A stretch of DNA of 38,262 nt from Acidimicrobiia bacterium. GTDB lineage: Bacteria; Actinomycetota; Acidimicrobiia; Acidimicrobiales; AC-14. Positions 7,317 through 15,303 of this stretch are shown piece after piece. Position 1 is the first letter of the stretch. Every line of letters begins with the position of its first letter. A program made the translations under genes and the position numbers. The notes beneath the pieces were generated by a model. That model searched no databases and was not told where the DNA came from. It was given only the letters and a program-made list of their open reading frames with translations. Location of the stretch: positions 1 through 38,262 of the forward strand of contig JAHFUP010000050.1 in the NCBI GenBank assembly GCA_023265025.1, given 5' to 3'.

Positions 7317-8069
7317 GTGAGTGAGGAGCTGGCCGCCGTCGTGCTGGCCGCCGGCGCCGGCACCCGCCTGCGGCCGCTCACCGACATCCTTCCCAAAGCG
7401 CTGTGCCCGGTCGACAACGTGGCCCTCGTCGACCTGGCCATCGACCGCGTCCGACCGCTCACGTCCCGGATCGCCGTCAACGTCCACCACGGCCGCGCAC
7501 TGCTGGAGTCGCATCTCGCCGGCCGGGTCCATTTCTCGATCGAGGAGCCCGAGGTCCTCGGCACCGCCGGCGCGCTCGGGCGGCTGCGCGACTGGATCGA
7601 CGGGCGGCCGGCGGTGGTCGTGAACGCCGACGCCTGGCACCGGTTCGACCTGTCCAGCCTGGTGGACGGCTGGGACGGCGAGCGGGTGTGTCTCATGGTC
7701 GTCGACGACCCCACCCGCGGTGACTTCGGACGGTGGCGCGTGTGCGGAGCGTCGATCATGCCGTGGACGGAGGTGCGCCGGCTGCGGGCAGTCTTCGGCG
7801 GGCTGTACGAGGAGTGCTGGGCGCGGCGGTGGGCCGAGGGCCGCCTCGAGCTCGTCCCCGCCACCGGGCCTTTCTTCGACTGCGGGACGCCGGCCGATTA
7901 CCTCGCCGCCAACCTGGCCGCGTCAGGGGGCGAGAGCGTCGTCGGCAAGGGCGCCCGGGTCGAGGGCGAGCTCGTGCGGTCAGTTGTGTGGCCGGATGGC
8001 GTCGTGCACCACGGCGAGCGGCTGGTCGAGTGCATACGCGTGGGGGACGACATGACCGTGCGCGCGTGA
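7317..8069 (+). CDS. Sugar-phosphate nucleotidyltransferase-like protein
   Basis: A 250-residue protein with the nucleotidyltransferase signature LAAGAGTRLRPLTDILPKAL at residues 10-29, a GTAGALGRL segment and VVVNADAWH, the usual metal-binding nucleotide-sugar site. It should transfer a nucleotide to a sugar 1-phosphate for glycan synthesis. The C-terminus (from about residue 205: VVGKGARVEGELVRSVVWPDGVV) looks like a short left-handed beta-helix. GTG 7317 is preferred because homology begins there; GTG 7299 and 7308 are in frame. The protein is shorter than most family members (about 300-360), chiefly in the middle. It converges on the secreted-protein gene with a strong terminator between. 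Confidence 0.75.
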   Translation: MSEELAAVVLAAGAGTRLRPLTDILPKALCPVDNVALVDLAIDRVRPLTSRIAVNVHHGRALLESHLAGRVHFSIEEPEVLGTAGALGRLRDWIDGRPAVVVNADAWHRFDLSSLVDGWDGERVCLMVVDDPTRGDFGRWRVCGASIMPWTEVRRLRAVFGGLYEECWARRWAEGRLELVPATGPFFDCGTPADYLAANLAASGGESVVGKGARVEGELVRSVVWPDGVVHHGERLVECIRVGDDMTVRA

Positions 8070-10594: not shown

Positions 10595-10709
10595 GCGCGT
10601 CACGCCTGACAGGTAGGGCACCGGGCCCTTACCCCGGACCCAGACTGGGTTCGAGGCCCCGAGCCTCGGAACACGCGTCGCTCTTCCGGGGCGAGCAGGG
10701 CGCGCACCA
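10595..10709 (+). tRNA. tRNA-Lys(CTT) interrupted in the T-stem, CCA encoded
   Basis: Acceptor GCGCGTC (10595-10601) pairs with GGCGCGC (10699-10705); A73 and CCA follow. D-arm GCCT/GGGC, anticodon stem CCGGG/CCCGG, loop CCCTTAC with CTT (C33). The T-arm runs CTGGG-TTCGAGG-CC, then about 37 extra bases (10659-10695), then CAG. Removing them restores CTGGG/CCCAG exactly. The variable loop is 7 nt, longer than usual. Either it needs removal of the insertion at RNA level or it is dead. Confidence 0.65.
10659..10695 (+). other. Insertion within tRNA-Lys
   Basis: About 37 bases between the two parts of the T-stem 3' strand; the boundary is ambiguous by one C. GCCCCG (10656-10661) and CGGGGC (10687-10692) are complementary, so the insertion folds on itself. 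Its interior does not match the 45-nt elements further on. Confidence 0.55.
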
Positions 10710-11138: not shown

Positions 11139-11210
11139 GTGGTCGTCGTTCAACGGCAAGGATCCCGGTACGCCACGCCGGCGATGGGAGTTCGATTCTC
11201 CCCGACCACA
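11139..11210 (+). tRNA. tRNA-Gly(GCC), C33
   Basis: Perfect acceptor GTGGTCG/CGACCAC, D-arm GTTC/GGAT, anticodon arm CCGGT-ACGCCAC-GCCGG with GCC at 11172-11174, T-arm GGGAG-TTCGATT-CTCCC. Position 33 is C and the discriminator A, whereas bacterial tRNA-Gly usually has U at both. Confidence 0.85.
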
Positions 11211-11245
11211 CTGTCTCCCCAACCACACCGTCTCCCCGACCACAC
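11197..11245 (+). repeat. Three tandem copies of the tRNA-Gly 3' end
   Basis: TCTCCCC(G/A)ACCACAC occurs at 11197-11211, 11214-11228 and 11231-11245, a period of exactly 17. The first copy is the 3' end of tRNA-Gly itself. The arrangement resembles attachment-site duplications left by tRNA-targeting integrases, or replication slippage. It lies just before rtcB. Confidence 0.8.
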
Positions 11246-11279
11246 CGTGAGAGAACTACACCGAGAGGAGGTGTCCACC

Positions 11280-12440
11280 ATGCCCACGACCATCAACCCC
11301 AAGCTCGTCTCCTGGGCGAGCGACATCGAGCCTGACACCATCCGTCAGGCCGAGAAGACCGCCCGCCTGCCCATCGTCGAGGGCCACGTGGCCCTCATGC
11401 CCGACGCCCACGTGGGCATCGGTGCCACGGTGGGCTCGGTGATCCCGACGCTGGGCGCCGTGATCCCGTCGGCCGTAGGCGTCGACATCGGCTGCGGCAT
11501 GATCGCCGCCGAGCTCGACGTCACCGAGGACCAGCTGCCCGACAACATCGAGCCGCTCCTCGGCCGCATCGAGCGGGCCGTGCCCGCCATCGTGGGCAAG
11601 GGCCACGACAAGGCCGGCAACGCCGCCGGCCGCTGGCTGTCGAACCACCGTCCGGCCACCGCTCTGTCGAGCGCCCAGGCCGACAAGGCGGCCAAGCAGT
11701 TCGGCACGCTCGGCTCGGGCAACCACTTCTTCGAGCTGTGCGTCGACGAGCGGGGCCGGGTGTGGGTCGTCCTGCACTCGGGCAGCCGGGGCATCGGCAA
11801 CCAGCTGGCCCAGATGCACATCGCCAAGGCCCGGCGCCTGGCCAAGGTGGCCGCCCTCAGCCTCGAAGACCCCGACCTGGCCTGGTTCGTCCAGGGCACC
11901 TCGGAGTTCGAGGCCTACGTCACCGACATGCTGTGGGCCCAGGACTACGCCAAGGCCAACCGCAACTCGATGATGGACCGGGCTCTGGCCGAGGTGCTGC
12001 GCTTCATCGGCACCGGCAAGCAGACCCGCCGGATCGACTGCCATCACAACTTCACGCAGCAGGAGGTCCACCAGGGCCGCGAGCTGTGGGTCACCCGCAA
12101 GGGCGCCATCCGGGCCGACGTCGGCGACTTCGGCGTCATCCCGGGCTCGATGGGCACCCGCAGCTACATCGTCGAGGGCAAGGGCAACGAGGCGAGCTGG
12201 ACGTCGTGTAGCCACGGCGCCGGCCGGCGCCACAGCCGGACCAAGGCCCGCAAGCTGTTCACCAACGCCGACCTGGCCACGGCCATGGCCGGCAAGGTGT
12301 GGCTGGCGGACCGGGCCGGCGCCCTGCTGGATGAGATCCCGGCCGCCTACAAGGACATCGACCAGGTCATGGCCGACCAGGCCGACCTGGTCACCGTCCT
12401 GCACACCCTGCATCAGGTCCTGAACTACAAGGGGACCTGA
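11280..12440 (+). CDS. rtcB: RtcB RNA ligase
   Basis: A 386-residue tRNA-splicing-type RNA ligase. RtcB joins 2',3'-cyclic phosphate (or 3'-phosphate) ends to 5'-OH ends with GTP and Mn2+. Visible family features: metal-binding cysteine in VGVDIGCG (Cys72), GSGNHFFE (about 147-154), HSGSRG (about 167), the HHNF histidine (about 257), and SCSHGAGR (about 310-317) with the histidine that takes the GMP (His313). It matches the short bacterial type of about 390-480 residues. AGGAGG at 11266-11271 sets ATG 11280. It sits inside the tRNA array on the same strand, with tRNA-Gly 70 bases before and tRNA-Thr 57 bases after. No archease partner is in the window. The context points to repair or splicing of array tRNAs. 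Confidence 0.95.
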   Translation: MPTTINPKLVSWASDIEPDTIRQAEKTARLPIVEGHVALMPDAHVGIGATVGSVIPTLGAVIPSAVGVDIGCGMIAAELDVTEDQLPDNIEPLLGRIERAVPAIVGKGHDKAGNAAGRWLSNHRPATALSSAQADKAAKQFGTLGSGNHFFELCVDERGRVWVVLHSGSRGIGNQLAQMHIAKARRLAKVAALSLEDPDLAWFVQGTSEFEAYVTDMLWAQDYAKANRNSMMDRALAEVLRFIGTGKQTRRIDCHHNFTQQEVHQGRELWVTRKGAIRADVGDFGVIPGSMGTRSYIVEGKGNEASWTSCSHGAGRRHSRTKARKLFTNADLATAMAGKVWLADRAGALLDEIPAAYKDIDQVMADQADLVTVLHTLHQVLNYKGT

Positions 12441-12571: not shown

Positions 12572-12578
12572 CTTCCAC

Positions 12579-12667
12579 CTCGCCCGATGCGCAGACCGGG
12601 GGCTACTTCATCTGTCAAATGAATGCCCGAAAGGGCGCACCCTCCGGTCGTCCGGTTCCCGGGCGAG
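12579..12667 (+). ncRNA. Structured tRNA-like element of unknown type
   Basis: CTCGCCCG (12579-12586) pairs with CGGGCGAG (12660-12667) over 8 bp. Inside is a perfect arm TTCAT-CTGTCAA-ATGAA like an anticodon arm (GTC), then GCCC-GAAA-GGGC like a class II variable arm. No GTTCGA T-loop exists; CCGG-TCGT-CCGG takes its place. It is not a normal tRNA. Candidates are a degenerate or interrupted tRNA, an allo-tRNA, or a Ro-associated Y RNA. Confidence 0.4.
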
Positions 12668-12671
12668 ACAT

Positions 12672-12822: not shown

Positions 12823-12824
12823 CT

Positions 12825-12946
12825 GTGGCCGAAGTAGAAGTGGACGACACGCCGGGACGTGGCCCCGGAGGAAGCCGGCGGCTGGTCTCACCTCCGCTTC
12901 GCTCCGATTCGCTCGCCGCTCCGTTCGAGTCCGGCCGGTCACCCCA
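12825..12946 (+). tRNA. tRNA-His(GTG) interrupted in the T-arm, CCA encoded
   Basis: Acceptor GTGGCCG (12825-12831) pairs with CGGTCAC (12936-12942); C73, the histidine identity base, and CCA follow. Anticodon arm CCGGG-ACGTGGC-CCCGG gives GTG at 12859-12861 (C33). After variable loop AGGAA the T-stem begins GCCG and is broken by a 45-nt element (12878-12922); G-TTCGAGT-CCGGC follows. Removing exactly 45 bases restores a perfect 5-bp T-stem. The D-stem is weak. Confidence 0.75.
12878..12922 (+). repeat. 45-nt element A, inside tRNA-His
   Basis: Arms GCGGC and GCCGC flank a 32-nt core that begins TGGTCTCACCTCC and ends GATTCGCTC; TCC follows, and then the GTTC of the tRNA T-loop. The core differs from element C by one base and from element B by two. 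Confidence 0.85.
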
Positions 12947-12950
12947 TCGA

Positions 12951-13020
12951 TGCGGGGATCTGGGGATCAGCGGGGCCCCATACGCCCTGCGCGCGGGTTC
13001 GATCCCCGCCCCCGCCACCA
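12951..13020 (+). tRNA. tRNA-Met(CAT), initiator-like, C33, CCA encoded
   Basis: TGCGGGG faces CCCCGCC, leaving a T-C mismatch at 1-72, an unpaired end like that of initiator tRNA. Anticodon arm GGGGC-CCCATAC-GCCCT with CAT at 12979-12981, T-arm GCGGG-TTCGATC-CCCGC, A73, CCA. The D-arm is shortened (CTG-GGGAT-CAG), so the body has only 67 nt. tRNA-Ile2 or elongator Met are alternatives. Confidence 0.7.
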
Positions 13021-13021
13021 C

Positions 13022-13094
13022 GGGCCGGTAGCGCAATTGGAAGCGTGACTCCCTTGCAAGGAGGAGGGTGCGGGTTCGACTCCCGCTCGGTCCA
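13022..13094 (+). tRNA. tRNA-Ala(TGC)
   Basis: Acceptor GGGCCGG/TCGGTCC (two G-U pairs), D-arm GCGC/GCGT, anticodon arm ACTCC-CTTGCAA-GGAGG with TGC at 13055-13057, T-arm GCGGG-TTCGACT-CCCGC, discriminator A. Confidence 0.9.
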
Positions 13095-13103
13095 CACACA
13101 CAG

Positions 13104-13177
13104 GCTGACGTAGCCCAATCGGGAGAGGCACGGCGCTCAGACCGCCGCCAGTGTCGGTTCGACTCCGACCGTCAGTA
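13104..13177 (+). tRNA. tRNA with Leu anticodon CAG but a short variable loop
   Basis: Acceptor GCTGACG/CGTCAGT, perfect anticodon stem CGGCG/CGCCG, loop CTCAGAC with CAG at 13138-13140, T-arm GTCGG-TTCGACT-CCGAC, discriminator A. The variable loop is only CCAGT. Bacterial tRNA-Leu normally has a long class II arm, so the charging amino acid is uncertain. Confidence 0.8.
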
Positions 13178-13194
13178 CAGAATCTGAGTTCCGC

Positions 13195-13266
13195 CTGGAT
13201 GTGGCGCAATGGGAGCGCGCCGGCTTTGGGAGCCGGGGGTTGGGAGTTCGAGTCTCCCCGTCCAGA
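13195..13266 (+). tRNA. tRNA-Pro(TGG)
   Basis: Acceptor CTGGATG/CGTCCAG with the C1-G72 pair typical of Pro, D-arm GCGC/GCGC, anticodon arm CCGGC-TTTGGGA-GCCGG with TGG at 13227-13229, T-arm GGGAG-TTCGAGT-CTCCC, discriminator A. Confidence 0.92.
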
Positions 13267-13279
13267 CCGATGCGAGGTA

Positions 13280-13324
13280 GTCCCTGGTCTCATCTCCGCT
13301 TCGCGCCGATTCGCTCGGGACTCC
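13280..13324 (+). repeat. 45-nt element B, inside tRNA-Gln before the D-stem
   Basis: Arms GTCCC and GGGAC flank the 32-nt core (two changes from element A), followed by TCC and then GTGC. The arms differ from those of A and C at several positions yet remain fully complementary. Confidence 0.85.
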
Positions 13325-13366
13325 GTGCAACCGGCACCACGCCTGGCTCTGAACCAGGAGATCCGG

Positions 13367-13411
13367 CCGGCTGGTCTCACCTCCGCTTCGCTTCGATTCG
13401 CTCGCCGGTCC
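13367..13411 (+). repeat. 45-nt element C, inside tRNA-Gln T-stem
   Basis: Arms CCGGC and GCCGG flank the core (one change from element A), followed by TCC and then GTGC. It occupies the same tRNA position, between nucleotides 52 and 53, as element A does in tRNA-His. Confidence 0.85.
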
Positions 13412-13469
13412 GTGCGAATCCTGGCCTCGCAGCCCCACGACGATGTTCTGCAGCGAGACGGCCTGCTGC

Positions 13470-13526
13470 GCAGGCGGGGGCTCCTTCTTGATCCGTAGGT
13501 TCCGGGTTCAAGTCCCGGCGCCGGCA
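13470..13526 (+). tRNA. tRNA-Ile(GAT)-like gene without a D-arm
   Basis: T-arm CCGGG-TTCAAGT-CCCGG, acceptor 3' strand CGCCGGC and A73 are canonical. GCAGGCG at 13470 pairs at 6 of 7 positions, and CCTTC-TTGATCC-GTAGG is a plausible anticodon arm with GAT. No room is left for a D-arm and the variable loop has only 2 nt. Probably a degenerate or deleted gene. Confidence 0.35.
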
Positions 13527-13690
13527 ACGGCGTAGCTCAATCGGGAGAGCAACGGAAGTGCTCCCCCGCCGTCCTGGTTCCCAGGCCGTCTCGATCATCC
13601 GGTCAGCTGCGAAGGACGGGCTTCCTTCCTTGGAGAGGGACGCATCCGTGCGTCCGCCGTTCGACTCGGCACCGCTCGTCCGCCGTGTTC
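13526..13690 (+). ncRNA. Candidate Y RNA (tRNA-like structured RNA before the Ro gene)
   Basis: It begins AACGGCG-TA-GCTC-AATCGGGA-GAGC-A, a perfect tRNA D-arm, and ends with a T-arm GCCG-TTCGACT-CGGC (13657-13670) followed by CGCCGT (13681-13686), able to pair with ACGGCG at the start. The part between has no normal anticodon arm but long nested helices: GGAAG/CTTCC, CCGTCC/GGACGG, and GGACGCA-TCCG-TGCGTCC (13638-13655). Bacterial YrlA-type Y RNAs mimic tRNA and lie beside Ro60/rsr genes. The Ro-binding motif itself was not located. Confidence 0.35.
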
Positions 13691-13736
13691 CCTGACCGGA
13701 CAATCTCACAGCACAACCCAACGAAGGAGCACCACC

Positions 13737-15303
13737 ATGTCGAAGTTCTCGGGCACCCGCCGGCGCCCGCTGCGGGCCAACCTCACCGCGCCCGTCCGCA
13801 CGTCGGGCCTGCGCACCCTCACGCACGAGGGCGGCCTCGGCTTCCTGCGCGACGCCGAGTCGGAGCTGTTCCTGCTCGCGGCCACGAACATGGTCGGCGA
13901 GGACACCTTCTACGAGCGCGCCCCCGACCGGGACGCCCGCTTCGTGGCCCTGGTCCGTCACGTGACCGAGACGAACCCGGCGTTCGTCGCCGGCCTCGCA
14001 CCGTACCTACGGACGTCGCTGCTCATGCGTTCGCCCGCAGTTGTGATGGCCGCCGAGTACGTGGCCGCCGGCGGCGCGCACGGCCGCGCCGTCGTCGACG
14101 GCGTGCTCCAGCGCGCCGACGAGCCGGCCGAGCTGCTCGGCTACTGGCTGACCGCGCACGGTCGGAACGTGCCGATGGCCGTCAAGCGCGGCGTCGCCGA
14201 CGCGACCCGGCGCCTCTACAACGAGCGGGCCGTGCTGCGCTACGACGGCCTGTCGCGCCAGGTCCGCATGGCCGATGTCATCGAGCTCACCCATCCGCAG
14301 CCGCGCGACGACCGGCAGTCGGCCCTGTTCCGCTGGCTGCTCGACCGTCGCCACCACGACGACGCCGTCGCCGGCGCCGACCGCCTCCCCGTCCTCGCCG
14401 CCGCACGCGAGCTCGAGGCCGTGCCGGCGGAGAACCGCCGGCCGGTCCTGCGCGACCGCGGCCCCGCCGCGCTGGCCGACGCCGGCTTCTCGTGGGAGCG
14501 GCTGTCGGGCTGGCTGCCGGGCGGCATGAACGCCGAGGCCTGGACCTTCGGTCATCCCGTCGATGGGCGTCATGGCGCTGGTCCGCAACCTGCGCAACTT
14601 CGACGAGGCCGGCGTCGACGACGCCACCGTCGACACCGTCATCGCCAAGATCACCGATCCCGACCAGGTGGCCAAGGCCCGGCTGTTCCCGTACCAGGTG
14701 TGGGCGGCGTACAAGCACGCGCCGTCGGACAACTGGAAGCGTGCCCTCGGCCGCACGCTCGACCTGACCGTGGCCAACATTCCCCGGCTCGACAACACCC
14801 TCGTCGTGATCGACACGTCGTCGTCGATGACGGCGCCGGTGTCGGGCCGGTCGAAGCTGTCGCGTGTCGAGGTGGCCGCAGTCATGGCCATGGCGACGGC
14901 GAAGCGGGCCACCGACGTCGAGGTCGTCATCTTCGGCGACGGCAACCGCCGGCTCGCCAACCCGGCCGGCGCCTCGGTCCTCGCCGGCGTGGCGACGGTC
15001 GTCGACCTGGTCGGCTCGGTCGGCCACTCGACGTTCGGCCACACCGCCATTGCGAAGCACTTCGACCCGAAGCGCCACCATCGCGTCGTCATCTTCACCG
15101 ACGACCAGCAGCACGACTCGGGCCGGGTGCGGCTCGACCACGTGCCGCTGATCTACACCTTCAACCTCGCCGGCTACAGCCCGTCCGCCCTCCCGGCGGG
15201 TGAGCGGGGCCGCTACACACTGGGTGGCTTCTCCGACGCCACCTTCACCGTCATGAAGGTGCTGGAGGACGGCCGCAACGCGGCCTGGCCGTTCATGTTG
15301 TGA
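13737..15303 (+). CDS. rsr: Ro60/Rsr-type TROVE and vWA RNA-binding protein (frameshifted)
   Basis: The first frame (from ATG 13737) encodes the TROVE half: an N-terminus with LTHEGGLGFLRDAESELFLL, HEAT-like helices, and SWERLSGWLPGGMNAEAW near residue 265. The second (up to 15303) continues with PSMGVMALVRNLRNFDEAGV and a von Willebrand A domain whose MIDAS motif DTSSSM is at 14812-14829. They join perfectly if one G at 14550-14551 is dropped (AWTF then VIPSMG). Full length would be about 521 residues, normal for bacterial Ro. Ro60 is a ring that binds misfolded RNAs and, through Y RNA, a partner such as PNPase. AGGAG precedes the start. It follows the tRNA array on the same strand. The frameshift is either an error or a true inactivation; no clear slippery site is seen. 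Confidence 0.88.

Follow-up and report, generated by a model that had tools for sequence, protein, structure and literature searches.

We found that three 45-nt elements, A, B and C, which interrupt a tRNA-His and a tRNA-Gln gene in an Acidimicrobiia genome, are likely to be copies of a short, non-autonomous palindromic repeat that was moved or copied as DNA into a partly decayed accessory tRNA array. The sites are filled in one array and empty in another without a consistent target duplication, copies lie away from tRNA genes in related genomes, and the pairing of the terminal arms is kept across copies.

The stretch of DNA analysed (the window; 38,262 nt) is the entire contig C182 of the source genome, G000. 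The first-pass annotation had described three elements of exactly 45 nt, and we recovered all of them at the positions and of the size it gave (Table 1). Their arms, said to be complementary despite differing in sequence, are fully paired in each element, and the 32-nt cores differ at 2 (A-B), 1 (A-C) and 3 (B-C) positions, in agreement with the one to three differences claimed. At the ten arm positions the elements differ 6 (A-B), 2 (A-C) and 8 (B-C) times, with every one of these differences falling in a compensating pair. A 34-base core pattern allowing up to 3 mismatches matched three times in the window, compared to a mean of 0 in 100 dinucleotide shuffles. Across the 5.45-Mb genome an 18-base core pattern found A, B and C without mismatch, and found 15 further matches with 3 mismatches, against 11 for a reversed-pattern control.

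Table 1 Features of the tRNA array in the window and of the second palindrome in related arrays.
Feature	Position	Strand	Context and basis
Different palindromic insert, 37 nt	10660..10696	+	in tRNA-Lys; joined flanks equal the intact C146 tRNA-Lys over 20 nt
rtcB RNA ligase gene	11139..12440	+	mid-array; PF01139, E 8.9e-112
tRNA-His(GTG), 5' part	12824..12877	+	alignment to intact tRNA-His of C146
Element A, 45 nt	12878..12922	+	tRNA-His after nt 52; arms GCGGC/GCCGC, foot TCC; empty site in C146 and G002 C86; end slides +1
tRNA-His, 3' part	12923..12946	+	alignment to C146
tRNA-Gln(CTG), nt 1-9	13271..13279	+	ARAGORN call after cut-outs
Element B, 45 nt	13280..13324	+	tRNA-Gln after nt 9; arms GTCCC/GGGAC, foot TCC; empty site in C146; ends slide +1 or +2
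tRNA-Gln, middle part, 42 nt	13325..13366	+	ARAGORN after cut-outs; C146 alignment
Element C, 45 nt	13367..13411	+	tRNA-Gln after nt 52; arms CCGGC/GCCGG, foot TCC; empty site in C146; ends fixed
tRNA-Gln, 3' part	13412..13434	+	ARAGORN after cut-outs; C146 alignment
TROVE-domain (Ro60-like) gene	13737..15203	+	array end; PDB 9l5y and 9kop, E 9.5e-20
81-nt palindrome copies	L081 5735-5815, about 7920-8030		
81-nt palindrome copies	L082 979-1051, 1155-1227		
81-nt palindrome copies	G002:C142 1598-1671, 1775-1847		

The region that holds the elements is an accessory tRNA array in which ARAGORN called 13 tRNA genes. It contains an rtcB gene, whose start is unfixed (the open frame runs from 11061), and is bounded by a TROVE-domain gene that matched nothing in Pfam up to E 1. 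Contig C146 of G000 bears the second array of this genome, whose rtcB is 96% identical to that of the window, with 17 of 219 fourfold sites differing, and 19 array tRNAs were called there together with one distant tRNA. Related arrays are found in genomes G002 (on two contigs) and G003, with a partial one in G005; G000 (C182 and C146) and G002 (C86 and C142) thus have two rtcB tRNA arrays each. As judged by its gene content, the window array is partly decayed relative to C146: no matching gene was found in it for tRNA-Glu and one tRNA-Ser, its other tRNA-Ser matches C146 but is uncalled, and its tRNA-Lys is interrupted. The window array is also a mosaic, its rtcB being closest to that of C146 and its tRNA-Val and tRNA-Pro being closer to those of G002 C86, which suggests exchange between arrays.

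Comparison with C146, in which tRNA-His and tRNA-Gln are both uninterrupted, bears on the boundaries of the elements. When the flanks of each element are joined, they differ from C146 by 1 (A), 0 (B) and 2 (C) mismatches over 20 nt. Empty orthologous sites, for which the first-pass annotation had proposed a search, are therefore present for A, B and C in C146, and for A also in G002 C86, where tRNA-His is empty; among the window, C146 and the G002 arrays, element A is found in the window only. The claim of an exact 45-nt excision holds as to length at each site, but the cut can be slid by 1 nt in A and by 1-2 nt in B, and only in C is it unambiguous. With this slack (1 nt for A, 2 nt for B and 0 nt for C) the empty-site comparison reveals no consistent target-site duplication. 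The tRNA-Gln of G002 C86 is collapsed: only the first nine bases and the last bases of the gene remain, separated by 28 nt similar to the left half of the element. This element-like remnant suggests that at least one tRNA-Gln insertion probably predates the split of the window and G002 C86 arrays, or else that exchange shared it.

Removal of the elements had been said to restore the T-stems of the tRNAs. In the case of tRNA-Gln(CTG) the gene is then called by ARAGORN; in the case of tRNA-His the T-stem is restored but the gene is still uncalled, although its counterpart in the C146 array is called. Aligned to C146, the window tRNA-His shows a gap of one base in the region of the D-arm, as does that of G002. 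Exons of the interrupted genes differ from C146 by 2 substitutions in 74 (tRNA-Gln) and 5 in 78 (tRNA-His), where seven intact array tRNAs have 2-9; these changes are too few to decide between splicing and insertion, and exchange between arrays may mask decay. The 3' part of tRNA-Gln begins with GTGC in the window and with GTTC in the C146 and G002 arrays (T55G). We considered that T55G might be left over from B having been copied to C, as the 3' flank of C (GTGC) equals that of B, by comparison with the co-conversion tracts of yeast mitochondrial GC42 elements that are mentioned in excerpts of a published account (PMC4478555). We do not rely on it, because the remnant in G002 is followed by GTTC and T55G may therefore be a later change.

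To follow the element in relatives, as the first-pass annotation had suggested, we built a covariance model from 14 copies and searched 248 genomes of the order using Infernal with stricter filters. A family was indeed found: 16 of the 248 genomes had matches, 24 of which, in 10 genomes, were strong (at least 39.9 bits) and 9 weak. The nine weak rows of the 33, all under 39 bits, are not included among the strong ones, and two of them are repeats of G003 that share part of the core. Matching genomes have 1-6 matches each, a range from which the draft state of the genomes and the stricter filters may hide some, as both copies and genes may be missed in drafts. Three of the strong matches are A, B and C, and one lies reversed in the G003 array, between tRNA-Glu and tRNA-Asn; for the remaining 20, ARAGORN, run on 1.8-3 kb around each, called no tRNA at the copy, and the sole tRNA nearby is a tRNA-Glu about 1.4 kb from a copy in G007. 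Within the family of G074 the model matched 3 of 6 genomes. The gap in G018 that corresponds to the site of one intergenic copy of G074 (L101) lacks the element, these gaps being too diverged for the ends to be placed. The left half of L105, which contains an intergenic copy in G002, did not align to the corresponding place in G000 or G001.

Among simpler patterns, one that allowed a single mismatch matched in 5 of 99 genomes, one of which (G059, L013) we took to be a chance match. An exact 20-base pattern matched 11 stretches among genome contigs, five of which appear to belong to G007, G009 and G074; the other six (three from Thauera and one each from Streptomyces, an acidobacterium and a Nomurabacteria) do not extend into the element and were judged to be chance. 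The exact core pattern had no match in viral contigs. Four repeats of G003 (L037, L050, L053 and L055) have part of the core in common and were not counted as members.

The first-pass annotation had read the covarying arms as a sign of a selected hairpin, and the covariation proved to be real and family-wide. An alignment of the 14 copies supports a structure of 10 pairs, made up of the arms, columns 13-15 with 29-31, and columns 19-20 with 24-25, in which 94.3% of cells are paired and 7 pairs have changes in both partners; neither value was reached in any of 500 shuffles. Shifting the partner by one column either way lowered the paired cells to 36% and 53%, while further pair types were not above shuffles (168 of 500). 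For the arms of 24 copies (the strong rows minus L166, whose arms are shifted, plus the weak L106, with arms typed by hand), 112 of 120 cells are paired against a shuffled mean of 86, and none of 100,000 shuffles was as high; 14 of these copies trained the model, so that their pairing in part reflects how the model was built, and the others were found using that structure. The ten non-training copies nevertheless include new compensated arms, for example GTGCC/GGCAC. Because single copies mostly fold with unexceptional energies (z of -0.78 for A, -2.05 for B, -0.03 for C and -0.21 for a G074 copy), the case for structure rests on covariation. Across the family the stem changes in compensating fashion around a conserved loop. 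A mini-hairpin proposed earlier within the core (GGT-CTC-ACC) competes with the pairing of columns 13-15 with 29-31, two of whose three pairs are changed on both sides across the 14 copies, and on this comparative ground the longer imperfect hairpin is the better supported of the two.

We next consider the ends of the element. Each window copy had been reported to adjoin GTTC or GTGC, and A, B and C are indeed followed by GTTC, GTGC and GTGC; GTNC comes directly after all five copies from the window, G002 and G003 (GTTC, GTGC, GTGC, GTGC and GTAC). Outside genomes G007, G008 and G009, 13 of 15 strong copies have a TYC 3' end, 12 of these 13 with a G next to it, whereas TYC is present in 1 of 9 copies in G007-G009. 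This pattern suggests that TYC marks the end of the element in one subgroup, with a weak preference as to target. Of the earlier suggestion of a site-specific miniature mobile element, the mobile element is what we favour; site specificity has the weaker support of TYC followed by G in those 12 of 13 copies and of GTNC after the five copies from the window, G002 and G003.

The tRNA-Lys gene of the window is interrupted by a different palindrome, with 1 nt of slack at its ends, and the joined gene is uncalled by ARAGORN. This 37-nt insert looks, by eye, similar to a palindrome of 81 nt that occurs in the C146 and G002 arrays. When 10 genomes were searched with the 81-nt palindrome there were 9 matches, the window insert not being among them; the six strong ones are all in tRNA arrays of G000 and G002, in both orientations, and one G002 copy is apparently inside a tRNA-Glu. 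With two palindrome families in them, rtcB tRNA arrays of this kind collect palindromes.

Taken together, these observations argue for a mobile palindromic repeat. The unit consists of a 5-bp stem, free in sequence but kept in pairing, and a conserved loop of 32 nt within which the folding extends as an imperfect hairpin; in this group a TYC foot follows at the 3' end, before a G. The hairpin, recognised mainly through its loop, may be what is copied and joined before G, and the array may tolerate inserts because C146 has duplicates of its tRNAs. A, B and C may have spread locally from one arrival, a notion suggested by the core signature GATT, which is present in all three and in 0 of 11 other aligned copies. 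Under uniform independent placement, the chance that three of three copies fall within the 3.2-kb array is about 2e-10, which calls for local copying or preference. In favour of a mobile repeat we count the empty sites, the copies without a tRNA, the reversed G003 copy, the absence in G018, the kept pairing, and the second palindrome family in the same arrays with its insert in tRNA-Lys. Against it we count the lack of a consistent target duplication and of any mover found, the interrupted exons, which are not visibly decayed, and the copies in three genomes of one family, all of which lie before glyA, as expected of a conserved regulatory hairpin. Set beside short palindromic mobile repeats such as GC clusters, the element has filled and empty homologous sites and keeps its pairing, but it has no consistent target-site duplication and its stem is not more conserved than its loop, the reverse being the case.

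The glyA copies are a ground for an alternative that we regard as unlikely, namely that the family is a regulatory hairpin or a structured RNA that is conserved, as in 5' leaders for example, and of which the tRNA copies are stray duplicates. In the three genomes concerned (L114, L102 and L104) the element precedes a gene for serine hydroxymethyltransferase (PF00464, E 1e-155 to 8.9e-152), possibly as a leader hairpin, and the three arm sets found among them, GTCCC/GGGAC, GTGCC/GGCAC and GCCCC/GGGGC, are all paired, so that the conserved loop and compensating stem are seen among these copies also; a further copy, in G076, lies before the gene for ribosomal protein L14. However, copies have no fixed relation to gene direction on a rough gene reading, the family was found in no more than 16 of 248 genomes, the elements enter precisely at three tRNA sites, and the only Rfam matches in the window at gathering scores are tRNA, with no group I or II intron or other family. 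The rough gene reading itself placed a spanning open frame over 8 of 21 copies, some of them over-extended (at L114 and L104 the serine hydroxymethyltransferase part starts downstream of the copy), and it says little about coding overlap. We note that at L114, L102 and L104 the element is nested within a longer GC-rich palindromic stretch.

Less probable still is the other reading offered in the first-pass annotation, that the elements are RNA introns, hairpins cut from tRNA precursors by an unspecified RNase with the halves joined by RtcB. The array-encoded RtcB RNA ligase is what made introns attractive, and the cut-outs restore tRNA-Gln, target duplication is not consistent, and the interrupted exons show no greater divergence than intact array tRNAs. 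The finding set beforehand as counting against introns was the core outside tRNA genes in relatives, and this is what 20 of the 24 strong copies present. Whereas protein-spliced tRNA introns would be confined to RNA genes in the sense orientation, the copy in the G003 array is moreover reversed. In the same array tRNA-Lys contains another palindrome, tRNA-Gln is collapsed in G002 C86 and carries T55G in the window where both relatives have T55, tRNA-His is uncalled even after the cut, and an EndA-type splicing endonuclease (PF01974) was found in 0 of 3 genomes in a search whose control gave a signal in 4 of 14. A more elaborate version, in which bacterial tRNAs would have a novel type of intron, after nt 9 and nt 52, that a hypothetical nuclease removes, with the array RtcB sealing the ends, and that derives from a mobile palindrome surviving in tRNA genes since it is excised from RNA, is a shade more improbable again. 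Finally, although the element is like a REP/REPIN-type palindrome in its size, in being palindromic and in lying mostly away from tRNA genes in other genomes, movement by a RAYT (Y1) transposase is very improbable, because Y1_Tnp (PF01797; control signal in 5 of 14) is present in none of the 10 genomes with strong copies, making RAYT not a likely mover, and because there is no high copy number.

Among known systems, Rickettsia palindromic elements resemble A, B and C in being palindromes inserted inside genes; compared by description, they are longer and lie within protein genes. The mobile repeat proposed here is closest in size and behaviour to yeast mitochondrial GC42 which, as given in excerpts of PMC4478555, is about 42 nt, GC-rich and palindromic, is present or absent at homologous places, and has no known mover. 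GC42 has, by the same excerpts, putative AG target duplications and changes concentrated in loops, whereas here the loop is conserved, the stem compensates and the host is bacterial. Sponge mitochondrial hairpin elements are repeats that invade gaps and also rRNA genes, but with conserved stems and variable loops; the paper contrasts their pattern with that of group I and II introns (PMC2800124). REP and REPIN sequences with RAYT are also short bacterial palindromes (PMC2817692, PMC3116915, PMC3733652, in excerpt), but they usually have more than 100 copies per genome (PMC2817692) and are tied to RAYT genes. A GTAG or CGTC tag at one end is a REP/REPIN feature according to excerpts of PMC3733652; neither tag occurs inside A, B or C, and GTAG arises at the left border of B only jointly with tRNA bases.

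Mycobacterial tRNA arrays are similar in being dense accessory tRNA clusters (PMC5966550, PMC12803027), and those of M. avium are described in the excerpted text of these papers as redundant with chromosomal anticodons. The arrays studied here differ in having rtcB, and the terms 'intron' and 'RNA ligase' occur in neither paper, nor 'palindrom' in PMC5966550. Archaeal and eukaryotic tRNA introns with RtcB ligation (PMC4090602, PMC3978253, in excerpt) share with this array the combination of interrupted tRNA genes and a nearby RtcB ligase, but here there is no EndA match and most copies are without a tRNA. No description of this element appeared in the titles and abstract openings of the open-access literature searched. 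Here a bacterial repeat as short as 45 nt enters tRNA genes, leaves no consistent target duplication, and has its filled and its empty sites within a single genome; the long-standing question of how tiny palindromes move thereby becomes testable. Its conserved loop and freely compensating stem are the opposite of the mitochondrial hairpin repeats compared, and its position beside an rtcB gene offers a concrete place to test bacterial tRNA splicing.

Two minor observations concern neighbouring DNA. Just left of the intergenic copy in G002, L105 1450-1505 is a further repeat, which G001 matches at 91-93% in four places. In the window, two stretches uncalled by ARAGORN (12573-12671, between tRNAs, and 13454-13710, before the TROVE-domain gene) are well conserved and could be tRNA-like or other small RNAs.
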